Shown here in pieces: positions 56,249 through 64,000 of a DNA stretch of 64,000 bases. Source of the stretch: Marinobacter sp. (GTDB lineage Bacteria > Pseudomonadota > Gammaproteobacteria > Pseudomonadales > Oleiphilaceae); assembly GCA_014359475.1 (NCBI GenBank), contig JACIZI010000003.1:1-64000 (forward strand). The letters run 5' to 3'. Under the pieces are notes generated by a model. It was given only the letters and a program-made list of their open reading frames with translations, did no database searches and was not told where the DNA came from. The position numbers and the translations under genes are program-made. Each line of letters begins with the position of its first letter. The stretch's first letter is position 1.

Positions 56249-56740
56249 TCAGGGGTGCTCCCGGGTCACCACCGGATAGCCTTCACCGGAGACTTTCAGG
56301 CTGCGCCACCCTTCGTCGCTTACAGCGACCACCGCACAGGGGGTCGTCAGCACCTGGGCCAGCATGGCACCTTTTGCCGGTTCGCGCACAGTGACGGCAA
56401 TTTCCAGCTGCCCGCCCCGGATCCGGGAGCCTGCGAGGGTGATGCCATAACCGCTCGTGGGCTTCTGCCCTAATCCGACCAGCAGCAGATACTCGTTAGC
56501 GAAATCCACCTGGCTCAACGGTTCCAGGGCAAGGTGACTGGCGGGCAGAGATTTCAGCGTAGCAACCTCCGGGCGCCCGGCAATCATCACAATACCCGGC
56601 GCCGTCAGACCACAGTGGTCGGACTGGAGCAGTTGCCGGGCCAGTGGCGCGCCGCCTTCGGTAAGGTCAGCACTGCCGGCACAGGCAACCAGCACGGAGG
56701 CCACGACCGGCACGAGCATGGACCAGAAACGATGGCTCAT
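56249..56740 (-). CDS. PrcB-like lipoprotein
   Basis: 163 residues. Lipobox LVAC with Cys20 after a hydrophobic signal. The C-terminal half, LLLVGLGQKPTSGYGITLAG, then GGQLEIAVTVREP and TTPCAVVAV, fits the PrcB C-terminal domain (DUF4424/PrcB-type). In Treponema denticola PrcB is a lipoprotein needed for the subtilisin-like dentilisin complex. Here it lies 11 nt downstream of a subtilisin-like lipoprotein, so a partnership is likely. That partnership is inference from context. Confidence 0.75.
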   Translation of the reverse strand: MSHRFWSMLVPVVASVLVACAGSADLTEGGAPLARQLLQSDHCGLTAPGIVMIAGRPEVATLKSLPASHLALEPLSQVDFANEYLLLVGLGQKPTSGYGITLAGSRIRGGQLEIAVTVREPAKGAMLAQVLTTPCAVVAVSDEGWRSLKVSGEGYPVVTREHP

Positions 56741-56751
56741 GAAACGTCTCC

Positions 56752-59367
56752 TCAGTCGGATGTCCGGACCCGCTTGATCGGCGAACCGTCACTGGCTGGT
56801 TTGATCCGGTAGCCGCGGAACCCGTAGCGGGGCTCGCCAAGGGCGCTGATGGTGGGCCGACGGAAGCTGGTGCTCAGTGACAGCTCCGGCAATGAGTCCC
56901 CATCAAACACCAGCGGCTCGGGCAACCCGTTCACGGGGTATTCGGCACAGGCCTCGCCATTCTCACAGATCAGACCGTTATTGTCTGTGTCGGTGCCCGC
57001 CACCAGAAAATACTTGCCCGGGGGGACATCATTGAACGCAAACCGGTACTGGCCGGCTTCCGCCTCAACCACCACCTGTTGTACGGTTTCCTGGCTGTCA
57101 CCGGTGGAAACCAGCAACACATAGTGTCGGCCGGCATTGCGGTCGTTCAGGGAATCACCGGTTTGCTGGATGACGGGGATGGTCAGGGTGCGCTCACTGC
57201 CGCTGCCGTCGTCATAAACGACCTGCACTTCTGCGCGCCGGGTTTGTCCATCGGCAAGACCCGAGGGATCCGCGGTAACCCTCAGCGAATCACCGCCGGG
57301 GCCCAGGGTCGCCTGTACCCAGCTCTGAGTTGCAGACACATCATCGTCAGTGAGGGTCACCGACAGATCGCCCTCGGAATATTTTACCAGCTCAACCGTC
57401 TGCCGTGTCAGAGCCCGGGTAAACTGAAGTACGGTGGGCTGGGCGGCAAGAATGACGCCTGGCACATTACCTTCCCGGGCGGCGCTGACGGCCTTGACCG
57501 CATCAATCAGTCCGTAACCGTATTCAGAGCGGTTGGGCGGTGTGGCCGTTAACTGTCCATCAACCAGATAGGTAAAGAATGCCTCAGGCCCGAATTCCCG
57601 ACCTGCATCCTCGGCCCCGGATTTCATCAGCGCATAGAGGGCGGAAACGTGAGGGGCGGCCATTGAAGTGCCCTGCAAACCGGCCCACGCCTCCCGGAAA
57701 TCGCCACCATCATCCAGGCCCCAGGTACTGACAATCAGATCCGAGCCTCCGGTGGAGGAATAGTCACCGCCCGGCGCGACCGCATCCACCGACACGCCCG
57801 TATTAGAATATGAGGCCCGGCGGCCGGAGCGGTCCACCGCGCCTACCCCGACGACATTGGGATAAGCCGCCGGATAGGTAGGCTCACCGGAGCCCTGGTT
57901 GCCCGCAGCAGCCACGACCAGCTTGCCTTCGGCCCGGGCACCATCCACCGCCTTTTTCAACTCTGTACTGTCGCCCAGCCCGCCAAGGCTCAGATTGATC
58001 ACGTCAATGTCGGGCTGACCGGATGCCCAGTTAATGGCATCGACCAGATCCGCAAGGCTTCCCTCGCCATTCCTGCCCAGCACCCGAATCGGGTAAAGAT
58101 CAACAGACGGTGCCACGCCAATTATCCCATCGTCATTATCGGTCGCTGCGATAATGCCTGCCACGTGGGTGCCGTGGAAATTGCTGCTGCGAGGCGTGCC
58201 GTCACCGGGATCGGCCGGATTCTGATCAGGGCCAGCATCAGAGTTCTGGTCATAATCCAGCTCGCCGGACACAAAATCCATAAACTCGCCAGGCACCAGC
58301 CTGACATTGGCATTCAGATCCGAGTGCCAGTTCTCTGCGGTACCCGGCGTGACGGTAAACAGCCCGGTATCCATCACCGCCACGCCCACCCCCTGCCCCA
58401 TCCCGGGTGCCAGCTGCCAGGCCAGGGGCAACTGGATGAGGGGCAGATTCCACTGCCGGTTGTACAGATCCTCACCTGCTTCCGGTGGCGGGGTTTGCTG
58501 GGCGTAATAGAGGTAGTTGGGCTCTGCATGGCGAACCCCGGGACGAGTCCGCAGGTCACGGATCCAGTCAAGGGTTGCCTGAGCGCCACTGGTGGCCGCG
58601 GCAGCGGTTGTCACACCGGAAGACGCCGAGGGCTGGCGCACGTGCCAGACTCCCTTACCCAGCGAACGGGCCGCCACACCGGAGGCAAACACCGATGCGG
58701 GGGATACCCTGCCTGCCCCGGGCTCCTCCATGACAACCACCGCTTCGCCGGGTCGGAAGGCAGGTTCGCTGTAGCGGAAGTTGGCGGCGGACACATTGCC
58801 GTCATTAACCAGCGCAATGACATACCGGAAAGGCGCACCGGACTCGGCGTAAAGCGTGATATTGTGGGGCTCCGGATCCGCGCCTGAAGCAACAGCGTTG
58901 AGGATAACACTGCCGAATCCGTTGACCGTCTGCTGCTCAGTCCGGCCATCCGATAATTCAACCTCGACACGTAGTCGGGGCGGGGATATATCGGGAAGAA
59001 ACCTGTCAGGTGCCCCGAAAAGCTGAACCACTATGCTATCCCCAGCGGACAGACTTGCGGCGTACTGGTCCTGTTCATCCCGGTAATACGCGAAATCATC
59101 CGCTGTGCCGGTGCTATAGGAACCACCGGAGCTGCTCAGGTAGCCCGCCGCGACGGCACCATCAGGCAGAGAAACCACCTCGGACACCGCTGTTCCGGCC
59201 AATATATCGTCCGCCGTATCCAGGTCGATCCGCGTGCGGCTTTCTATGGCGATGGTTCCGCCGATATCCGGCCCGCGACTGGCCGATGCTCTCGAATCGC
59301 TGTCACTGCAGCCGGACAACGCCAGAATCGTCGCACTGGCGAGAATGCTGGAATACTTGTTCAACAT
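56752..59367 (-). CDS. S8 (subtilisin-like) peptidase lipoprotein
   Basis: 871 residues. Signal peptide with lipobox ALSGC (Cys20). The N-terminal region (about 30-300) holds a pre-domain and a peptidase inhibitor-like segment (LDWIRDLRTRPGVRHAEPNY). The catalytic domain has the full triad: Asp333 in AVMDTGLF, His398 in NFHGTHVAG, Ser568 in GTSMAAPHVSAL, with oxyanion Asn490 in AAAGNQG. The C-terminal 250 residues look like one or two beta-sandwich domains. It is expected on the cell surface or in the periplasm. In operon with the PrcB-like lipoprotein. Confidence 0.92.
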   Translation of the reverse strand: MLNKYSSILASATILALSGCSDSDSRASASRGPDIGGTIAIESRTRIDLDTADDILAGTAVSEVVSLPDGAVAAGYLSSSGGSYSTGTADDFAYYRDEQDQYAASLSAGDSIVVQLFGAPDRFLPDISPPRLRVEVELSDGRTEQQTVNGFGSVILNAVASGADPEPHNITLYAESGAPFRYVIALVNDGNVSAANFRYSEPAFRPGEAVVVMEEPGAGRVSPASVFASGVAARSLGKGVWHVRQPSASSGVTTAAAATSGAQATLDWIRDLRTRPGVRHAEPNYLYYAQQTPPPEAGEDLYNRQWNLPLIQLPLAWQLAPGMGQGVGVAVMDTGLFTVTPGTAENWHSDLNANVRLVPGEFMDFVSGELDYDQNSDAGPDQNPADPGDGTPRSSNFHGTHVAGIIAATDNDDGIIGVAPSVDLYPIRVLGRNGEGSLADLVDAINWASGQPDIDVINLSLGGLGDSTELKKAVDGARAEGKLVVAAAGNQGSGEPTYPAAYPNVVGVGAVDRSGRRASYSNTGVSVDAVAPGGDYSSTGGSDLIVSTWGLDDGGDFREAWAGLQGTSMAAPHVSALYALMKSGAEDAGREFGPEAFFTYLVDGQLTATPPNRSEYGYGLIDAVKAVSAAREGNVPGVILAAQPTVLQFTRALTRQTVELVKYSEGDLSVTLTDDDVSATQSWVQATLGPGGDSLRVTADPSGLADGQTRRAEVQVVYDDGSGSERTLTIPVIQQTGDSLNDRNAGRHYVLLVSTGDSQETVQQVVVEAEAGQYRFAFNDVPPGKYFLVAGTDTDNNGLICENGEACAEYPVNGLPEPLVFDGDSLPELSLSTSFRRPTISALGEPRYGFRGYRIKPASDGSPIKRVRTSD

Positions 59368-59464
59368 AACCCGATGCTGCCCTCCGTTTCCCCGGACTGT
59401 TTTCCTGTACGTCAGAATACACCAGTATGGATGACAATATTCCGGGTTTCACGGCGCACCAGCA

Positions 59465-59491
59465 AAGAGGGCCGGATGAACCGGCCCTCTT
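59465..59491. terminator. Intrinsic terminator downstream of the calcium-repeat lipoprotein gene
   Basis: AAGAGGGCCGG (59465-59475), loop ATGAA, CCGGCCCTCTT (59481-59491). It lies 46 nt past the stop at 59537 on the minus strand and before the S8 gene, though the T-run is short. Confidence 0.7.
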
Positions 59492-59536
59492 GATGTGGCT
59501 GAACCTTCAGCCATCGATTATCTCACCCGAAAGCTG

Positions 59537-60625
59537 TCAGGGCTGAAGCTGCAGCGCCTCAGGACTCGCACACACAGCATTCACATCCAGTTGCGCATTC
59601 AATGCGAGGCCTTCCAGACTGATGGATACCTCGTTAAAGTCGCTATCCGTATCCGCCAGAATATAACCGACCTCCTCGTTGTCCAGCAGTCCGGTAAGGC
59701 CCGGAACAAAGAGGTTATCCTCTGCATAGACAAAGGTTTCCTGATCTACCCCGTTCAGCCTTGTCGTGACCATCACACGCGCCCTTCCGGACAGGCTCAG
59801 CAACCGGTCCTTGTTCGCCACGGCAACACCGATGAGGTTAGGTGCCTTGTAGGTCTGGAAGGACATCACCGTCAACGCCGGGCCCTCCATAAACCCGAGA
59901 CGCGCAGGCACCACGATCGATGCCGAGTTAAACAAATTCGCATCGACAACCTGCTCCGGATTCCTGACACACCCTCCGAGACACCAGAACGTGGTATCAC
60001 CCGTGGCACGGGCAGCGGGCATCAGTAACGGTTCGAACGGTGCATCAACCGCGGTACCGCATGCGTAAACCAAGTCCGGGTCAAATGCCGGATCGCACTG
60101 ATCGCCTACACCATCGCCATCCGAATCCTCCTGCCCTGGATTGGCGGTCGCGGGACAGTTGTCCAGAGCATCCTGGATGCCATCCCCATCACCATCCTGG
60201 TCAGTCGAGGCAGTATCACAGGCATCGCCAATCCCATCCTCATCCGAGTCCTCCTGTCCCTCGTTGAAGACTGCCGGGCAGTTATCGTCCATATCCCGGA
60301 TACCGTCACCGTCAGAGTCAGCGAATTCCTCACAACCTGAACTGTTATTCGGATCGGAAGGGCACTGATCCAGCGGGTTGTCAATTCCGTCACCGTCGAT
60401 ATCAGAATCGCAGGCATCGCCGACACCATCGCCATTAAGGTCCAATTGATCCGGATTCGGAGCCAGCGGACAGTTATCGTCTTTATTGATAACATCGTCT
60501 TCGTCAAAATCCTGTGAACCCACATCGCCAGACTCCTCCGGTGAGTTCCCCGGGCTACACCCCGCCAGAGAAAACAGCACCGTGAGCAATAATGCCAATG
60601 GCCAGTGACAGGCTTTAAGGTTCAT
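59537..60625 (-). CDS. Thrombospondin type 3 repeat lipoprotein
   Basis: 362 residues. Lipobox SLAGC (Cys23). Residues about 38-185 contain four thrombospondin type 3 repeats of the form DxDxDGxxDxxDNCP, with paired cysteines, that bind calcium. The C-terminal 170 residues form a beta-rich domain with cysteines (FWCLGGC). It is a surface lipoprotein of unknown function, preceded by AAAGGA. It stands between the S8 protease and the C39 cassette. Confidence 0.88.
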   Translation of the reverse strand: MNLKACHWPLALLLTVLFSLAGCSPGNSPEESGDVGSQDFDEDDVINKDDNCPLAPNPDQLDLNGDGVGDACDSDIDGDGIDNPLDQCPSDPNNSSGCEEFADSDGDGIRDMDDNCPAVFNEGQEDSDEDGIGDACDTASTDQDGDGDGIQDALDNCPATANPGQEDSDGDGVGDQCDPAFDPDLVYACGTAVDAPFEPLLMPAARATGDTTFWCLGGCVRNPEQVVDANLFNSASIVVPARLGFMEGPALTVMSFQTYKAPNLIGVAVANKDRLLSLSGRARVMVTTRLNGVDQETFVYAEDNLFVPGLTGLLDNEEVGYILADTDSDFNEVSISLEGLALNAQLDVNAVCASPEALQLQP

Positions 60626-61087
60626 AACTCAAGATCCTTTTGGATTTCAGCAGGAAGCAAAATGAAATTACTTGGTTCGCTGAGATAACAGTTGGATTTA
60701 GCCTTCCGAGCGCAGGTCGAAGAAGTCTTCGTCATGGGAATCCCATGTTTCAGCCGACCAGTGACACCAGGCACGACGATGGCCTGCCCGCCAAACTCGC
60801 TCGAGAAGCTATTGTTTGCATCATCCCATGGAATACCAGCGCGCCAGGACAAGCCTTGCAAATACGCCTTTTGCTCGTAAGGTTTGGCACTTATGCCACA
60901 GCCATTACGGTTAGCCTGCATTATCGGACAAAAAGGCACCACGTTGCCTTGGCACGGTTCACATTTACCCGTGTCAAATTGGCCTGTTCAAGGTTCGGAA
61001 ATTTGCTTTTTATGATACACCGGCATGGCCCAACGCATGCTGTTTTTGCCTGTGCACACTCGACGCATCTGGTTTAAGGGTGGGAGA
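60626..61087. other. 462-nt stretch without a supported gene
   Basis: It lies between the calcium-repeat lipoprotein and the C39 peptidase gene, both leftward. ORFs of 106 and 145 codons cross it on opposite strands, but neither shows a recognisable domain and their codon use is irregular. It probably holds the lipoprotein promoter and possibly an eroded gene. It looks slightly more AT-rich than the core regions. No repeat or hairpin stands out. Confidence 0.5.
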
Positions 61088-61756
61088 CTAAGGTGCACCA
61101 CGAAATATTTGCTGTTTTACAGCTTGCGCCGTTTGCCGCCTTGGCTGGTTCGTGAAAAAGTCATCCGCACCCTGAACTTCCTGGTCTGCCGGGATGATGG
61201 CCAGAATCTTGCCTTTTAACGTGCTATCGTCCCGGGTTTCCCATGCCTCAAGAAACTGATGCTTACTATAGGTCCGGTTACCCAGGGAGGGGTCGGCCAT
61301 CCAGACTGTATCGCTGTTAACCCCTCGTATTACAGAGAAGTGATCCGTCTTGCGATGCTTGGTGTAAACGACGACGGGAACTTTCAGTTTGGTTAGTTGC
61401 TCAAATGAGGCGGCATACCCGACTCCGCGGAAGCCTAACTTTGCCAGGGCGCCGGCCATGTCCTCAAAGGAGGCCCTCATATTGCCATTGTCAATAAGAT
61501 CCAGTATTTCCGCTTCTGTTACAGACCGGCCATAATACCCATTGAGAATCGTTGCGATCGAAGCAGCACCACAGGAGTAATCCAGATCCTGCTTGACAAC
61601 CCCGGCATCTCTCAGGGTTTTCCAGCTCGTCACGGGGATGGCACCACTTAAGTTGTTATCGTTTGAAACATAGGCATACTCCGCAGCCTTGACAGAGCCT
61701 ACGGTCAATATCGTTAAGGAAAGTATCAGCAGGTATGTTTGAGAGAGTTTAGGCAT
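61088..61756 (-). CDS. Exported stand-alone C39 family peptidase
   Basis: 222 residues from ATG 61756 (MPKLSQTYLLILSLTILTVG), a signal peptide with cleavage near VKA. Papain-fold C39 signature: Gln56, Cys62 in QDLDYSCGAASIATIL, His139 in KTDHFSVIRGV, Asp155 in VWMADPSLGN. C39 domains normally sit at the N-terminus of ABC transporters and cut GG/GA leaders; here the domain is alone and exported, as in FapD of the Pseudomonas amyloid system. It follows the precursor gene, which has such a motif, after 187 nt. Confidence 0.9.
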   Translation of the reverse strand: MPKLSQTYLLILSLTILTVGSVKAAEYAYVSNDNNLSGAIPVTSWKTLRDAGVVKQDLDYSCGAASIATILNGYYGRSVTEAEILDLIDNGNMRASFEDMAGALAKLGFRGVGYAASFEQLTKLKVPVVVYTKHRKTDHFSVIRGVNSDTVWMADPSLGNRTYSKHQFLEAWETRDDSTLKGKILAIIPADQEVQGADDFFTNQPRRQTAQAVKQQIFRGAP

Positions 61757-61887
61757 GATGCGCTTGTGCCTGAGTAGTCGTGGATGTCGCAACGTCTGGC
61801 CGCTGCGGGCATTACTGCAGCCCTGTTGAAAGAATCGATGCATGTTTCCCGGCCTGGTTACGGCGGAACACTGATTCCCTGGCCAGA

Positions 61888-61920
61888 TTCGCCTCTGCCC
61901 ATACGACAGGCAGAGGCGAA
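61888..61920 (-). promoter_or_regulatory. Stable hairpin between precursor and C39 genes
   Basis: TTCGCCTCTGCC (61888-61899) and GGCAGAGGCGAA (61909-61920) make a perfect 12-bp stem with a 9-nt loop, 24 nt past the precursor stop. There is no T-run, so it would act as a 3' stabiliser or attenuator that leaves less message for the peptidase than for its substrate. Confidence 0.7.
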
Positions 61921-61943
61921 TACTAACTTGCGGTCAGCTTACT

Positions 61944-62324
61944 TCAGTTGCTGGGACTGATGAAGTTGGCGGTCAGGAACAAACGGTCACTGACGTAAGT
62001 CCGAATGGCTTCCTTTTGTGAGGAATAGAAGTCGCGACGCATGTCACGCCTGGCCTGGGCGTAGTCGTGAATATTCGAAAGCTTTTCACGGGTGGTCTCG
62101 ATGCGGTCAGACACCTTTCCGATGATAGATCCCACAATGCCGAAATTAAGGAACGCGCCTTCGGTTTCCATCATCTCCTGCTCGGACAACGGTGCCAGCT
62201 CCATTGCCTGGCTGTTGTCCGCGCTGAAGATCAGGCTGGCGTCGACCGAATGGGAATCATCGGCTGCGAATGCAGACGTAGACATAACACCGCTTACCAG
62301 TGTTGCTATCACTAATTTTTTCAT
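61944..62324 (-). CDS. Sec-exported precursor with internal double-glycine (GA) leader motif
   Basis: 126 residues from ATG 62324 (MKKLVIATLVSGVMSTSAFA, a clear Sec signal). After a short acidic spacer comes LSEQEMMETEGA at 46-57. With Ala57 as -1 this has Leu at -12, Ser at -11, Glu at -8, Met at -7 and Gly at -2, the pattern of bacteriocin leaders cut by C39 peptidases; -4 is Thr rather than a hydrophobic residue. The released part (58-126) starts with a hydrophobic, Gly-spaced stretch FLNFGIVGSIIGKVSD, then a charged helical region. It has no cysteines after the cut. Function: peptide, fibre subunit or surface protein; unknown. Confidence 0.8.
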   Translation of the reverse strand: MKKLVIATLVSGVMSTSAFAADDSHSVDASLIFSADNSQAMELAPLSEQEMMETEGAFLNFGIVGSIIGKVSDRIETTREKLSNIHDYAQARRDMRRDFYSSQKEAIRTYVSDRLFLTANFISPSN

Positions 62325-62359
62325 TTCTTTTCTCCACACAGGTTATTGGGAGCTCTTGG

Positions 62360-63241
62360 TTAAATGGCATAAAGCCAATTAAATCTCAGGCTGGCTCCAC
62401 TTTGGCCTGAGACATTCGCCGAAAAGGAAACATTAAGCGTGTTTCCCTTCGATACCCCGTATCCCAGACCGAGCGTCAAATCTGTGCTGGTCCGGTCAAA
62501 TCCCTGTGGCTCATCATCAAGGTAGCCCGCCTCGAGAAAAGTCCATTTAAAGCCCGACGTCAGTGTCACGCGGTCGTTAACAGCGAATGCCACTGAGGGA
62601 GTCAGAAAAAAAAGATTGCCCGGTTCATAGCTGGCCTCGCCATCGTCCCGTTCCTGGTTCCACTGGAAAGAGCCGGTGACGGAAAGCACTACCGGATCAA
62701 TGGCCCGGTAGGTGGTCAGACCCAGGGCCCATGATTTGCCGGAATCGCTGCCCTGCTGATATTTTTCGTACGCGGCGCCCTCAATAAAGCCAAGCAGCGC
62801 CGGAGTCTTGCCGTCCCTGGAAAATTGGTGATTCAGGCCCACCCAGGAGCTCAAAAAACGATTTTCCGTATCCTTGAAGTTTCCGCTAAGATCGCCATAT
62901 CGTTCATTGCGATACAGGTAGCTGGCACGAACATAAATCTCGGTATCACGCGTCACCCCACGCCTGAGGCCCAGGGTCCCAATAAACGCATCCGTATTAC
63001 TTTCAAACTCCCCGAACCGGGTAGGCAGTAAAACAAAAGACGCATCACCCGTGGGGACAATAATAGCATCACCTGTCGACAGGCGCTGACTTTGATCGTT
63101 CACGTAGGTGACGGACATATCCAGCTGGGTTCTGCCCTCCTCAGCGATAAGGTCTTCAATCGTCAAAGGGAGCTCAGCGGCCGCGGCGGGCGAGACCAGA
63201 AGGAGGGTGGCAGTAATGTAAAGATTGCGCAGTCCATTCAC
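62360..63241 (-). CDS. Outer-membrane beta-barrel protein, transporter-like
   Basis: 293 residues from GTG 63241 (VNGLRNLYITATLLLVSPAA, signal peptide ending AAA|ELP); the ORF extends upstream to 63343 but those residues are not signal-like. After cleavage there is a short N-terminal segment (LTIEDLIAEEGRTQLDMS) and alternating beta strands throughout, as in outer-membrane exporters and amyloid-secretion barrels such as FapF. The last residues, FNWLYAI, are not the classic terminal aromatic. It is 35 nt ahead of the precursor gene, so it is probably co-expressed and may export or anchor the product. Confidence 0.75.
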   Translation of the reverse strand: MNGLRNLYITATLLLVSPAAAAELPLTIEDLIAEEGRTQLDMSVTYVNDQSQRLSTGDAIIVPTGDASFVLLPTRFGEFESNTDAFIGTLGLRRGVTRDTEIYVRASYLYRNERYGDLSGNFKDTENRFLSSWVGLNHQFSRDGKTPALLGFIEGAAYEKYQQGSDSGKSWALGLTTYRAIDPVVLSVTGSFQWNQERDDGEASYEPGNLFFLTPSVAFAVNDRVTLTSGFKWTFLEAGYLDDEPQGFDRTSTDLTLGLGYGVSKGNTLNVSFSANVSGQSGASLRFNWLYAI

Positions 63242-63257
63242 GTTGCAGTCAAATCCT

Positions 63258-63350
63258 TTAACAGCTTTGGAGAACACTTTGATGCCTGCTCCATCGGGCG
63301 ATGAAGCAAGAGCAACCGTAACCCACTTCCAAGGCATCGTCAATAAACAT
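63258..63350 (-). CDS. Possible 30-residue leader ORF ahead of the barrel gene
   Basis: ATG 63350 to TAA 63258 encodes 30 residues beginning MFIDDALEVGYGCSCFIARW. A very strong Shine-Dalgarno, AAGGAGG (63359-63365 on the complement), lies 8 nt ahead. Another ATG at 63354 gives only MNVY. The stop is 16 nt before the barrel GTG, which itself has only AAAGGA at a long spacing, so translation may be coupled. It has three cysteines and no clear domain. It could be a chance ORF, but the ribosome site argues for translation here. Confidence 0.4.
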   Translation of the reverse strand: MFIDDALEVGYGCSCFIARWSRHQSVLQSC

Positions 63351-63451
63351 TCATCCCCCCTCCTTTTTTACCACGACGACCTCACACTTCAAGCAGTGGC
63401 CCGGCTTTCCAGGAAGTTCAACAGGATGGACTTGCCCCTCAACGCCCCACA

Positions 63452-63490
63452 AAAAAACCGACAGCGGGCGTCTCCCCGGTGTCGGTTTCT
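63452..63490. terminator. Intrinsic terminator downstream of the TRAP permease gene
   Basis: AAACCGACA (63456-63464) and TGTCGGTTT (63481-63489), with a 16-nt loop and a run of seven A (63452-63458) on the plus strand. On the minus strand this is a hairpin followed by TTTTTTT, 24 nt past the permease stop. Confidence 0.88.
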
Positions 63491-63513
63491 GGTATTGACG
63501 AGGGCATTCCTTC

Positions 63514-64000
63514 CTACAGGGCGTAGAACAACATCGGTATGAAGCCGGTCGCCAGCAGCGTGGGAATCATCACCAGAAGCGGCAGCAGCAACCGCTCATA
63601 ACGGTGCCAGATGCTACCGCTACGCTCGGCCGCCAGAACTTCCTCCTCTCCGACAACTTGCCGTGTCAGCAGGTGGTTAAGGGCCACCGGCGGGCTGAGG
63701 TAACCAAGCTCGAAGGCGACCAGGCAAACCACCCAGAAGTGAACCGGATCGATGCCGATCTGCATGGCCGGCTGGGCCACGGTTGCCGAGACCAGTACTA
63801 CCGCACCAAACGGATCCATGACCATACCAATCAGGGTCAGCATCACGACGATGATCGCCATCGCTACCCAGGGACTGGTCAGATCCTCCGGGAACAACTC
63901 TGTAACAATATCAGAGCGCTCCAGGATACCGCCGAGACAGAGGGTGAAGCCGATCAGCCCCAGCAAGGCACCGATGTGCACCGCGGAATCGCTCGCCGCA
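63514..64000 (-). CDS. TRAP transporter large permease, DctM-like (partial)
   Basis: The C-terminal 161 residues of a large membrane protein; the reading frame stays open to the window edge, so the 5' end lies outside. Hydrophobic helices alternate with loops (MAIIVVMLTLIGMVMDPFGAV; VVCLVAFELGYLSPPVAL), with the conserved IGYLSPPVGLN-like motif and DP-x-H-FW of DctM family permeases. It works with DctQ and a periplasmic binding protein to import carboxylates or similar solutes. The substrate is unknown. Confidence 0.85.
   Translation of the reverse strand, partial: AASDSAVHIGALLGLIGFTLCLGGILERSDIVTELFPEDLTSPWVAMAIIVVMLTLIGMVMDPFGAVVLVSATVAQPAMQIGIDPVHFWVVCLVAFELGYLSPPVALNHLLTRQVVGEEEVLAAERSGSIWHRYERLLLPLLVMIPTLLATGFIPMLFYAL

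Follow-up and report, generated by a model that had tools for sequence, protein, structure and literature searches.

The 64,000-nucleotide stretch of Marinobacter sp. DNA analysed here (contig JACIZI010000003.1, positions 1 to 64,000, called the window in the following) carries three consecutive leftward open reading frames (ORFs) at 61088..63241, exactly where a first-pass annotation of this DNA had placed them. In the order barrel, precursor and peptidase, they encode a protein related to the outer-membrane barrel FapF (P0003), a small Sec-exported precursor with a Gly-Ala (GA)-type leader motif (P0002) and an exported, stand-alone C39 peptidase (P0001). We propose that this cassette is a self-contained export and maturation line operating without an ATP-binding cassette (ABC) transporter, and that the payload of the family is most probably an effector resembling microcins or toxins, a reading to which we assign a probability of about 0.66. 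The export line itself is very probable on the grounds of homology and co-conservation. The effector reading appears well supported for the family, but for the window's own product it is tentative, at somewhat under even odds, because the payload is atypical and no ORF follows the precursor gene.

According to the proposed mechanism, the Sec pathway would move precursor, barrel and peptidase across the inner membrane, as their signal peptides suggest. The C39 peptidase would then recognise the LSxxEMxxTEGA leader in the periplasm, cut after Gly-Ala and free a payload of 69 residues; motif, invariant active site and co-conservation all point to this step. The homology of the barrel to FapF suggests that the payload leaves through it. 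The product of the window could be a diverged effector, could act on the producer's own cells as claimed for the Nap peptides of Neisseria, or might have some other role. The compact system with a periplasmic C39 cut proposed in the first-pass annotation thus stands, with two precedents: FapD and the nap island, the second of which that annotation had not linked to the cassette.

Components of the cassette

The features of the cassette, all on the minus strand, are as follows.

62360..63241, minus strand: gene P0003 for an outer-membrane barrel of the FapF/NapF type (profile match to FapF), 293 residues, GTG start at 63241
63176..63241, minus strand: signal peptide of the barrel, residues 1-22 of P0003, judged by eye
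61944..62324, minus strand: precursor gene P0002, 126 residues; its leader matches model A2 with an E-value of 2e-19, the window's sequence being itself a row of A2
62265..62324, minus strand: Sec signal peptide of the precursor, approximately residues 1-20, MKKLVIATLVSGVMSTSAFA, assigned by a hydrophobicity and charge rule
62154..62189, minus strand: GA-type C39 leader motif LSEQEMMETEGA, residues 46-57, a strict pattern match
61947..62153, minus strand: payload of 69 residues that the C39 cut is predicted to set free; codon-position GC content supports the frame
61757..61943, minus strand: gap between the precursor and C39 genes, where many relatives have an immunity-like ORF and the window has none
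61088..61756, minus strand: gene P0001 for the exported stand-alone C39 peptidase (PF03412), NapP-type, 222 residues, ATG start at 61756
61685..61756, minus strand: signal peptide of the C39 protein, residues 1-24 of P0001, judged by eye
61571..61591, minus strand: active-site segment Gln56 to Cys62, invariant in 41 of 41 sequences
61292..61342, minus strand: active-site segment His139 to Asp155, both residues invariant in 41 of 41 sequences

The C39 domain of P0001 matches PF03412 with an E-value of 2.9e-23; a longer reading frame for the protein opens at 61843, and the ATG at 61756 was used. The four catalytic residues are invariant in all 41 aligned C39 sequences, and so is the block KQDLDYSC; in keeping with the annotation, the active site of the exported peptidase is thus intact. 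P0001 groups with three gonococcal C39 proteins, one of them from the nap island (locus L110), while eight more distant C39 sequences split off with a support of 99/98. The best gonococcal match is 54.5% identical over 85% of P0001. Within the genus there is no close relative: matches were obtained in 33 of 36 genus relatives, at 38% identity or less, and the one C39 protein of the main genus group that was scanned (L006) is FilB-like (276 bits). In the same search the genome of the window yielded no second, more distant C39 match. Its only PF03412 matches are P0001 and a putative lipoprotein of 330 residues (C23:182559-182933, L002 1330-2322), which lies outside the P0001 subfamily. With the NCBIfam model for FapD (NF058616), P0001 reaches 85.3 bits, below the cut-off of 330.

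P0003 on its own has no Pfam match above the cut-off. However, profile A1, built from 26 barrel relatives, matches only FapF in the PDB (four distinct sequences, best E-value 6.4e-5), and hhalign assigns a probability of 98 to the comparison of this profile with the FapF-like barrel that one genus relative encodes next to a C39 gene. The barrel-like protein with a signal peptide noted at first sight is therefore no member of an unrelated family. Within the barrel alignment, P0003 shares 30-65% identity with the remaining 25 members. Of the 26, 13 are matched by a generic outer-membrane barrel family and three, at an E-value of 0.01 or less, by the NCBIfam FapF model; P0003 is not one of these three and is a distant relative of FapF, not an equivalog. 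The conserved barrel region begins right behind the signal peptide and comprises 271 residues in total, judged by length and alignment. The sequence AAAGGA lies upstream of the GTG start.

The precursor P0002 consists of a K-K pair, a hydrophobic core, AFA, a short spacer, LSEQEMMETEGA and 69 further residues, the motif ending at residue 57 as originally counted. It has no family match above cut-off in Pfam and NCBIfam and none in PHROGs, and it was found in one of 58 genomes, its own. The GC content at the three codon positions of the 69-residue part (0.46/0.41/0.67) resembles that of the leader and supports the frame as read, and both other frames contain stops. A misread frame was therefore rejected as the reason for the unusual payload.

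The strict motif pattern is found 41 times in 81 loci (the window's own copy included, the duplicates L001 and L003 excluded), and not once in 29 C39 loci of relatives (L005-L033, reach approximately 1.3-1.5 kb on each side). The leader motif is therefore not a product of chance. A signal peptide by rule precedes 39 of the 41 matches; the other two, L061 at a contig edge and L074, have no qualifying start. Among 46 precursors, the commonest residues of the leader are Leu at -12 (39), Ser at -11 (40), Glu at -8 (41), Met at -7 (41), Thr at -4 (41), Gly at -2 (42) and Ala at -1 (34, with Glu in eight), counts which include near-copies and a few misaligned rows and leave out the empty-payload precursor of L051. 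This pattern is the leader grammar of class II microcins. Judged by its sequence, the motif thus follows the double-glycine grammar, set in the window 45 residues into a Sec-exported protein.

Co-conservation of the three genes

Scanning a species-level genome collection with P0001 gave 48 C39 loci. They range from Oceanospirillum and Marinospirillum (69-72% identity) to Tepidimonas, Comamonas, Thauera and Neisseria, and also cover Cardiobacterium, Shewanella, Psychrobacter, Moraxella and Helicobacter. Nitrospirota and Bacteroidota are represented by single metagenome-assembled genomes, which bear these labels but could be mis-binned. A barrel gene accompanies the C39 gene in 34 loci, a precursor gene in 34, both in 30 and neither in ten (L067 and L071 were counted through their twins L104 and L103). 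Seven of the ten loci without either partner have less than 2.3 kb of upstream sequence. Where at least 3 kb are available upstream (35 loci), 30 have a barrel, 29 a precursor and 27 both, the precursor sharing the two-part leader of Sec signal and LSxxEMxxTEGA motif, so that the co-conservation expected for a functional unit is indeed found in relatives. In all 30 loci with both partners the three genes lie on one strand, and in 26 of them in the order barrel, precursor, C39. The order precursor, barrel, C39 occurs in two Helicobacter loci, an extra precursor in L059 and L066, and a barrel fragment in L059.

The association also holds when the search starts from the leader. Model A2, run against 369 gammaproteobacterial genomes at an E-value of 0.001, matches ten of them, and in five genomes, at six places, the match reaches the motif (model position 59 or beyond). 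This C39 subfamily occurs in seven genomes (E-value 1e-40), which include all five, and C39 and barrel genes adjoin all six places. Since G000, G185 and G329 supplied rows to A2, only G103 and G226 are independent of the model. The other five matches of this class search end before or short of the motif and resemble ordinary signal peptides in unrelated genomes. In a phylum-wide draw of 398 genomes, 27 match A2, all weakly (1.5e-4 or worse) except the window's own, and there is no new motif-bearing precursor among these 398, which indicates that the system is sparse. We inspected 25 stray matches, namely 20 of the 27 other phylum-wide places and the five signal-peptide-only matches of the class search, and found no motif and no significant C39 or barrel match there (mostly within about 1.5 kb on each side, about 5 kb for G585, one of the 20). 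The remaining seven phylum-wide places end at model position 50 or lower, ahead of the motif. As these false matches show, the front part of A2 acts like any common signal peptide. The idea of a common leader unrelated to C39 was rejected, as the 25 stray matches inspected lack the motif.

The genome G103 has seven copies of this C39 gene (L105, L106, L125-L128), and a barrel gene lies downstream of each. Four leaders were found in it, three of which precede payloads of 209, 247 and 254 residues.

Payload swapping and following ORFs

Leaders are alike in 547 of 666 precursor pairs and payloads in only 45. Precursors encoded in tandem share the leader at 52 of 55, 69 of 71 and 56-58 of 62-63 positions, and their payloads differ. 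The ORF behind the precursor gene has at least two transmembrane windows in 26 of 46 cases, against five of 158 control frames; the rule defining this ORF was fixed before scoring, but after a first look at the ORFs behind precursors. After dereplication, in which L035, L041 and L048 were dropped as near-copies, six of seven pairs with alike following ORFs are also alike in their payloads (permutation mean 0.38, maximum 4 in 20,000). In many relatives, these following ORFs are small, mostly membrane-type and immunity-like, and they track the type of payload. Since the leader is constant, the payloads are mostly unrelated and the following ORF tracks the payload, the family follows the logic of bacteriocin and immunity pairs rather than that of fibre subunits. 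The content of asparagine and glutamine (N+Q) is low in the payloads (median 7.1%, maximum 19.6%), and 34 of 46 contain a [GA]xxx[GA]xxx[GA] run.

Several observations weigh against the proposal, some of them concerning the window itself. The payload of the window is atypical: glycine-poor (4.3%) and charged (net charge +3), with 8.7% N+Q and no [GA]xxx[GA]xxx[GA] run. The gap at 61757..61943 holds no ORF of at least 50 residues by the rule for following ORFs, and on both strands none of at least 60 residues except the upstream extension of the C39 frame. In 24 of 30 dereplicated payload-alike pairs the following ORFs are unlike, although the payload similarity is mostly weak in these pairs. 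In eight of the 35 loci with at least 3 kb upstream the barrel, the precursor or both are missing, and the count of 34 precursors in 48 loci is partly circular, since A2 was built from the same loci. The gene order varies as well: the barrel gene lies behind the C39 gene in each of the seven copies of G103, and the C39 gene of G226 is on the opposite strand. Finally, the main text of the nap paper describes the published Naps as having no antimicrobial activity (PMC11798529).

Comparison with known systems

The closest described system is the nap island of Neisseria gonorrhoeae and N. meningitidis (Poncin et al. 2025, PLoS Biol, PMC11798529), with homologous NapP and NapF; Fap is more distantly related. 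Cassette and island share a C39 peptidase of one group, on the branch with 99/98 support, which marks P0001 as NapP-type, and a FapF-related barrel, which marks P0003 as NapF-type (A1 matches the barrel frame of L110 with an E-value of 2e-52 and the full barrel of another gonococcal locus, L161, with 4e-108). They further share a peptide with a GG/GA-type site and the character of an acquired island. In contrast to the cassette, the gonococcal island examined, L110, yielded no precursor with a Sec signal and an LSxxEMxxTEGA leader; it sits between the genes for histidyl-tRNA synthetase and pseudouridine synthase, as given for nap in the paper. The cationic GG peptides NapA-C are, according to the nap paper, 36, 16 and 31 residues long when mature (PMC11798529), whereas the product of the window has 69 residues behind a Sec signal and a GA leader. 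The terms 'Sec' and 'signal peptide' are absent from the main text of the nap paper, whose authors suggest that the holin-like NapH serves for the crossing of the inner membrane (PMC11798529).

The record that contains L110 also contains L161 (Neisseria gonorrhoeae NZ_CP119142.1, 165000-177000), in which a full-length FapF-type barrel is immediately followed by a precursor with a Sec signal, a LSQKEMKETEGA leader and a payload of 122 residues; no C39 gene is found in this stretch. The record is filed as a plasmid in the plasmid collection, but with 2.17 Mb it looks like a gonococcal chromosome.

With the functional amyloid system Fap of Pseudomonas (Rouse et al. 2017, PMC5557850), the cassette shares a Sec-exported C39 peptidase and a FapF-type barrel. 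It differs in the absence of FapA, FapB, FapC and FapE from the seven neighbouring window proteins scanned, as already noted at first sight, and in a barrel that is too short, by length and alignment, for the coiled coil and linker of FapF. According to the Fap study, canonical C39 sequences are absent from the Fap proteins and the target of FapD is unclear (PMC5557850); the precursor of the window does have a canonical site.

Class II microcins of the microcin V type resemble P0002 in their double-glycine-type leader and small payload. In the cassette, however, the leader comes after a Sec signal, and the C39 domain stands alone in the periplasm instead of inside an ABC transporter. No ABC or membrane-fusion gene is present among the seven window proteins scanned, and no immunity ORF lies between precursor and C39 gene. 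The putative pilus system Fil of Acinetobacter likewise has a stand-alone C39 protein, and the FilC model matches the FapF-like barrel of a relative (L005, E-value 7e-7). However, P0001 reaches just 81 bits with the NCBIfam FilB model (cut-off 475), the matches of the 26 barrels at an E-value of 0.01 do not include FilC, and the more distant C39 proteins of the genus, one of them shown to be FilB-like, lie across the supported branch from P0001.

Alternative explanations

The product had also been considered as a surface fibre, a peptide or a biofilm component. The peptide has gained ground, since among these products a bacteriocin-like or toxin-like peptide agrees best with the family, while the fibre or biofilm subunit has lost it. 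A reduced Fap-type exporter, whose payload is a surface or matrix subunit and whose C39 cut licenses secretion as with FapD, would agree with the relationship of the barrel to FapF, with the lack of an immunity-like ORF in the window and with FapD as a periplasmic C39 peptidase needed for FapC secretion, as the Fap study reports (PMC5557850). We nevertheless consider it unlikely, given the low N+Q content of the payloads and of the window's own, the unlike payloads behind one leader even inside a single locus, the immunity-like ORFs behind the precursors of many relatives and the 85 bits of P0001 where FapD would call for 330. Slightly easier to entertain, though still rather improbable, is a peptide of the kind claimed for the Naps, which would lyse or signal to the producer's own population and therefore need no adjacent immunity gene. 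The homology to NapP and NapF and the missing ORF in the window fit well, as does the Nap-dependent autolysis without antimicrobial activity that is reported in the nap paper's main text (PMC11798529). On the other hand, no two-part-leader precursor was found in L110, so that the Naps may not be equivalents of P0002, and the payload-tracking ORFs in relatives point to effectors with a protected producer.

It is also conceivable that only the export line has stayed intact and that the 69 residues behind the leader form a worn or unrelated tail, the cassette being an empty vehicle or on its way out. The atypical composition, the missing following ORF, the restriction of P0002 to its own genome among 58 and the broken precursor genes of L051 and L058 speak for such a decay; against it stand the intact frame, with a codon-position GC content resembling that of the leader, and the intact C39 active site and barrel frame, and we regard it as the least probable of the three. 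The broken genes (L051 5360-5566, L058 974-1438) end or break at the motif and might be worn copies or sequence errors.

For the family, an effector delivered by the cassette remains the preferred reading. In a wider form of it, the odds are about even that the family represents a general delivery route for polymorphic toxins or bacteriocins in Gram-negative bacteria, with a cut at Gly-Ala or Gly-Glu, without an ABC transporter and with cognate immunity genes. On this view, Sec would bring in two-part-leader precursors, and after the periplasmic C39 cut a FapF-type barrel would release interchangeable payloads of approximately 20-250 residues, the genes travelling on chromosomal islands and small mobilizable plasmids. 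The nap island and Fap would then be specialised offshoots, and the Sec-led gonococcal precursor found elsewhere an overlooked member. Beyond the nap island, our literature search, which did not extend to subscription journals and preprints outside the library searched, found no description of this route. The available text of a survey of polymorphic toxins presents C39-like domains as toxins or ABC-associated peptidases and makes no mention of a route of Sec, C39 and barrel (PMC3482391).

In the precursors of this family, encoded next to the peptidase, a canonical C39 site comes straight after a Sec signal, and therefore substrate, cut and exit route can be tested with three small genes. If the effector reading is true, this would be a line of bacteriocin export simpler than type I secretion, and many unexamined peptides and immunity candidates would come with it.

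Genomic setting and neighbouring genes

59368..63513, no strand: stretch between the DctM and S8 protease genes that is not found in relatives; it contains the cassette and the gene of a TSP3-repeat lipoprotein
59537-60625: gene of this TSP3-repeat lipoprotein, inside the inserted stretch but not assigned to the system

The window copy looks acquired, since in all 29 fetched genus relatives a frame for an S8 protease follows directly behind the DctM gene; in the window, the two are separated by the cassette and the lipoprotein gene. DctM is 75-86% identical in these 29 relatives. The S8 frame is mostly just 32-48% identical to that of the window, so that the S8 genes may not all be orthologous. 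The GC content of the three cassette genes is 51-53%, against 59% for the window. A mobilizable Acinetobacter plasmid of 6.3 kb carries the cassette, and the unit has moved between lineages.

The TSP3-repeat lipoprotein was rejected as a part of the system, as no homologue occurs among the ORFs of L005-L081; one genus relative (G002) has a homologue with 67% identity, approximately 62 kb from its DctM gene. Scans of viral contigs with the barrel and C39 alignments gave no relative, and a phage origin was discarded. The phage collection contains three weak C39 matches (29-36% identity), two named ABC-transporter peptidase and one C39-family peptidase, and in PHROGs the C39 protein has weak matches to ABC-transporter and endolysin entries, while the other four proteins submitted have none. 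A role in anti-phage defence was dropped as well, as the five proteins have no PADLOC match. No RNA element reaches the gathering score within 59000-64000.

The large S8 protease gene (56249-59367) adjoins a gene for a PrcB-domain protein, a pair reminiscent of the dentilisin pairing PrtP/PrcB in NCBIfam, with scores far below the cut-off. Two further families occur near the cassette in relatives. Family F4, a membrane protein of approximately 190 residues, is encoded near C39 in 15 loci (L039, L042-L050, L052, L054, L057, L059, L074), many from Betaproteobacteria by name, and the one member scanned has no Pfam match. Family F8, a protein of approximately 280 residues, adjoins the cassette in ten loci (L047, L050, L051, L057, L067, L069, L070, L071, L076, L081); the two members scanned match DUF2059, and it might be an accessory component.

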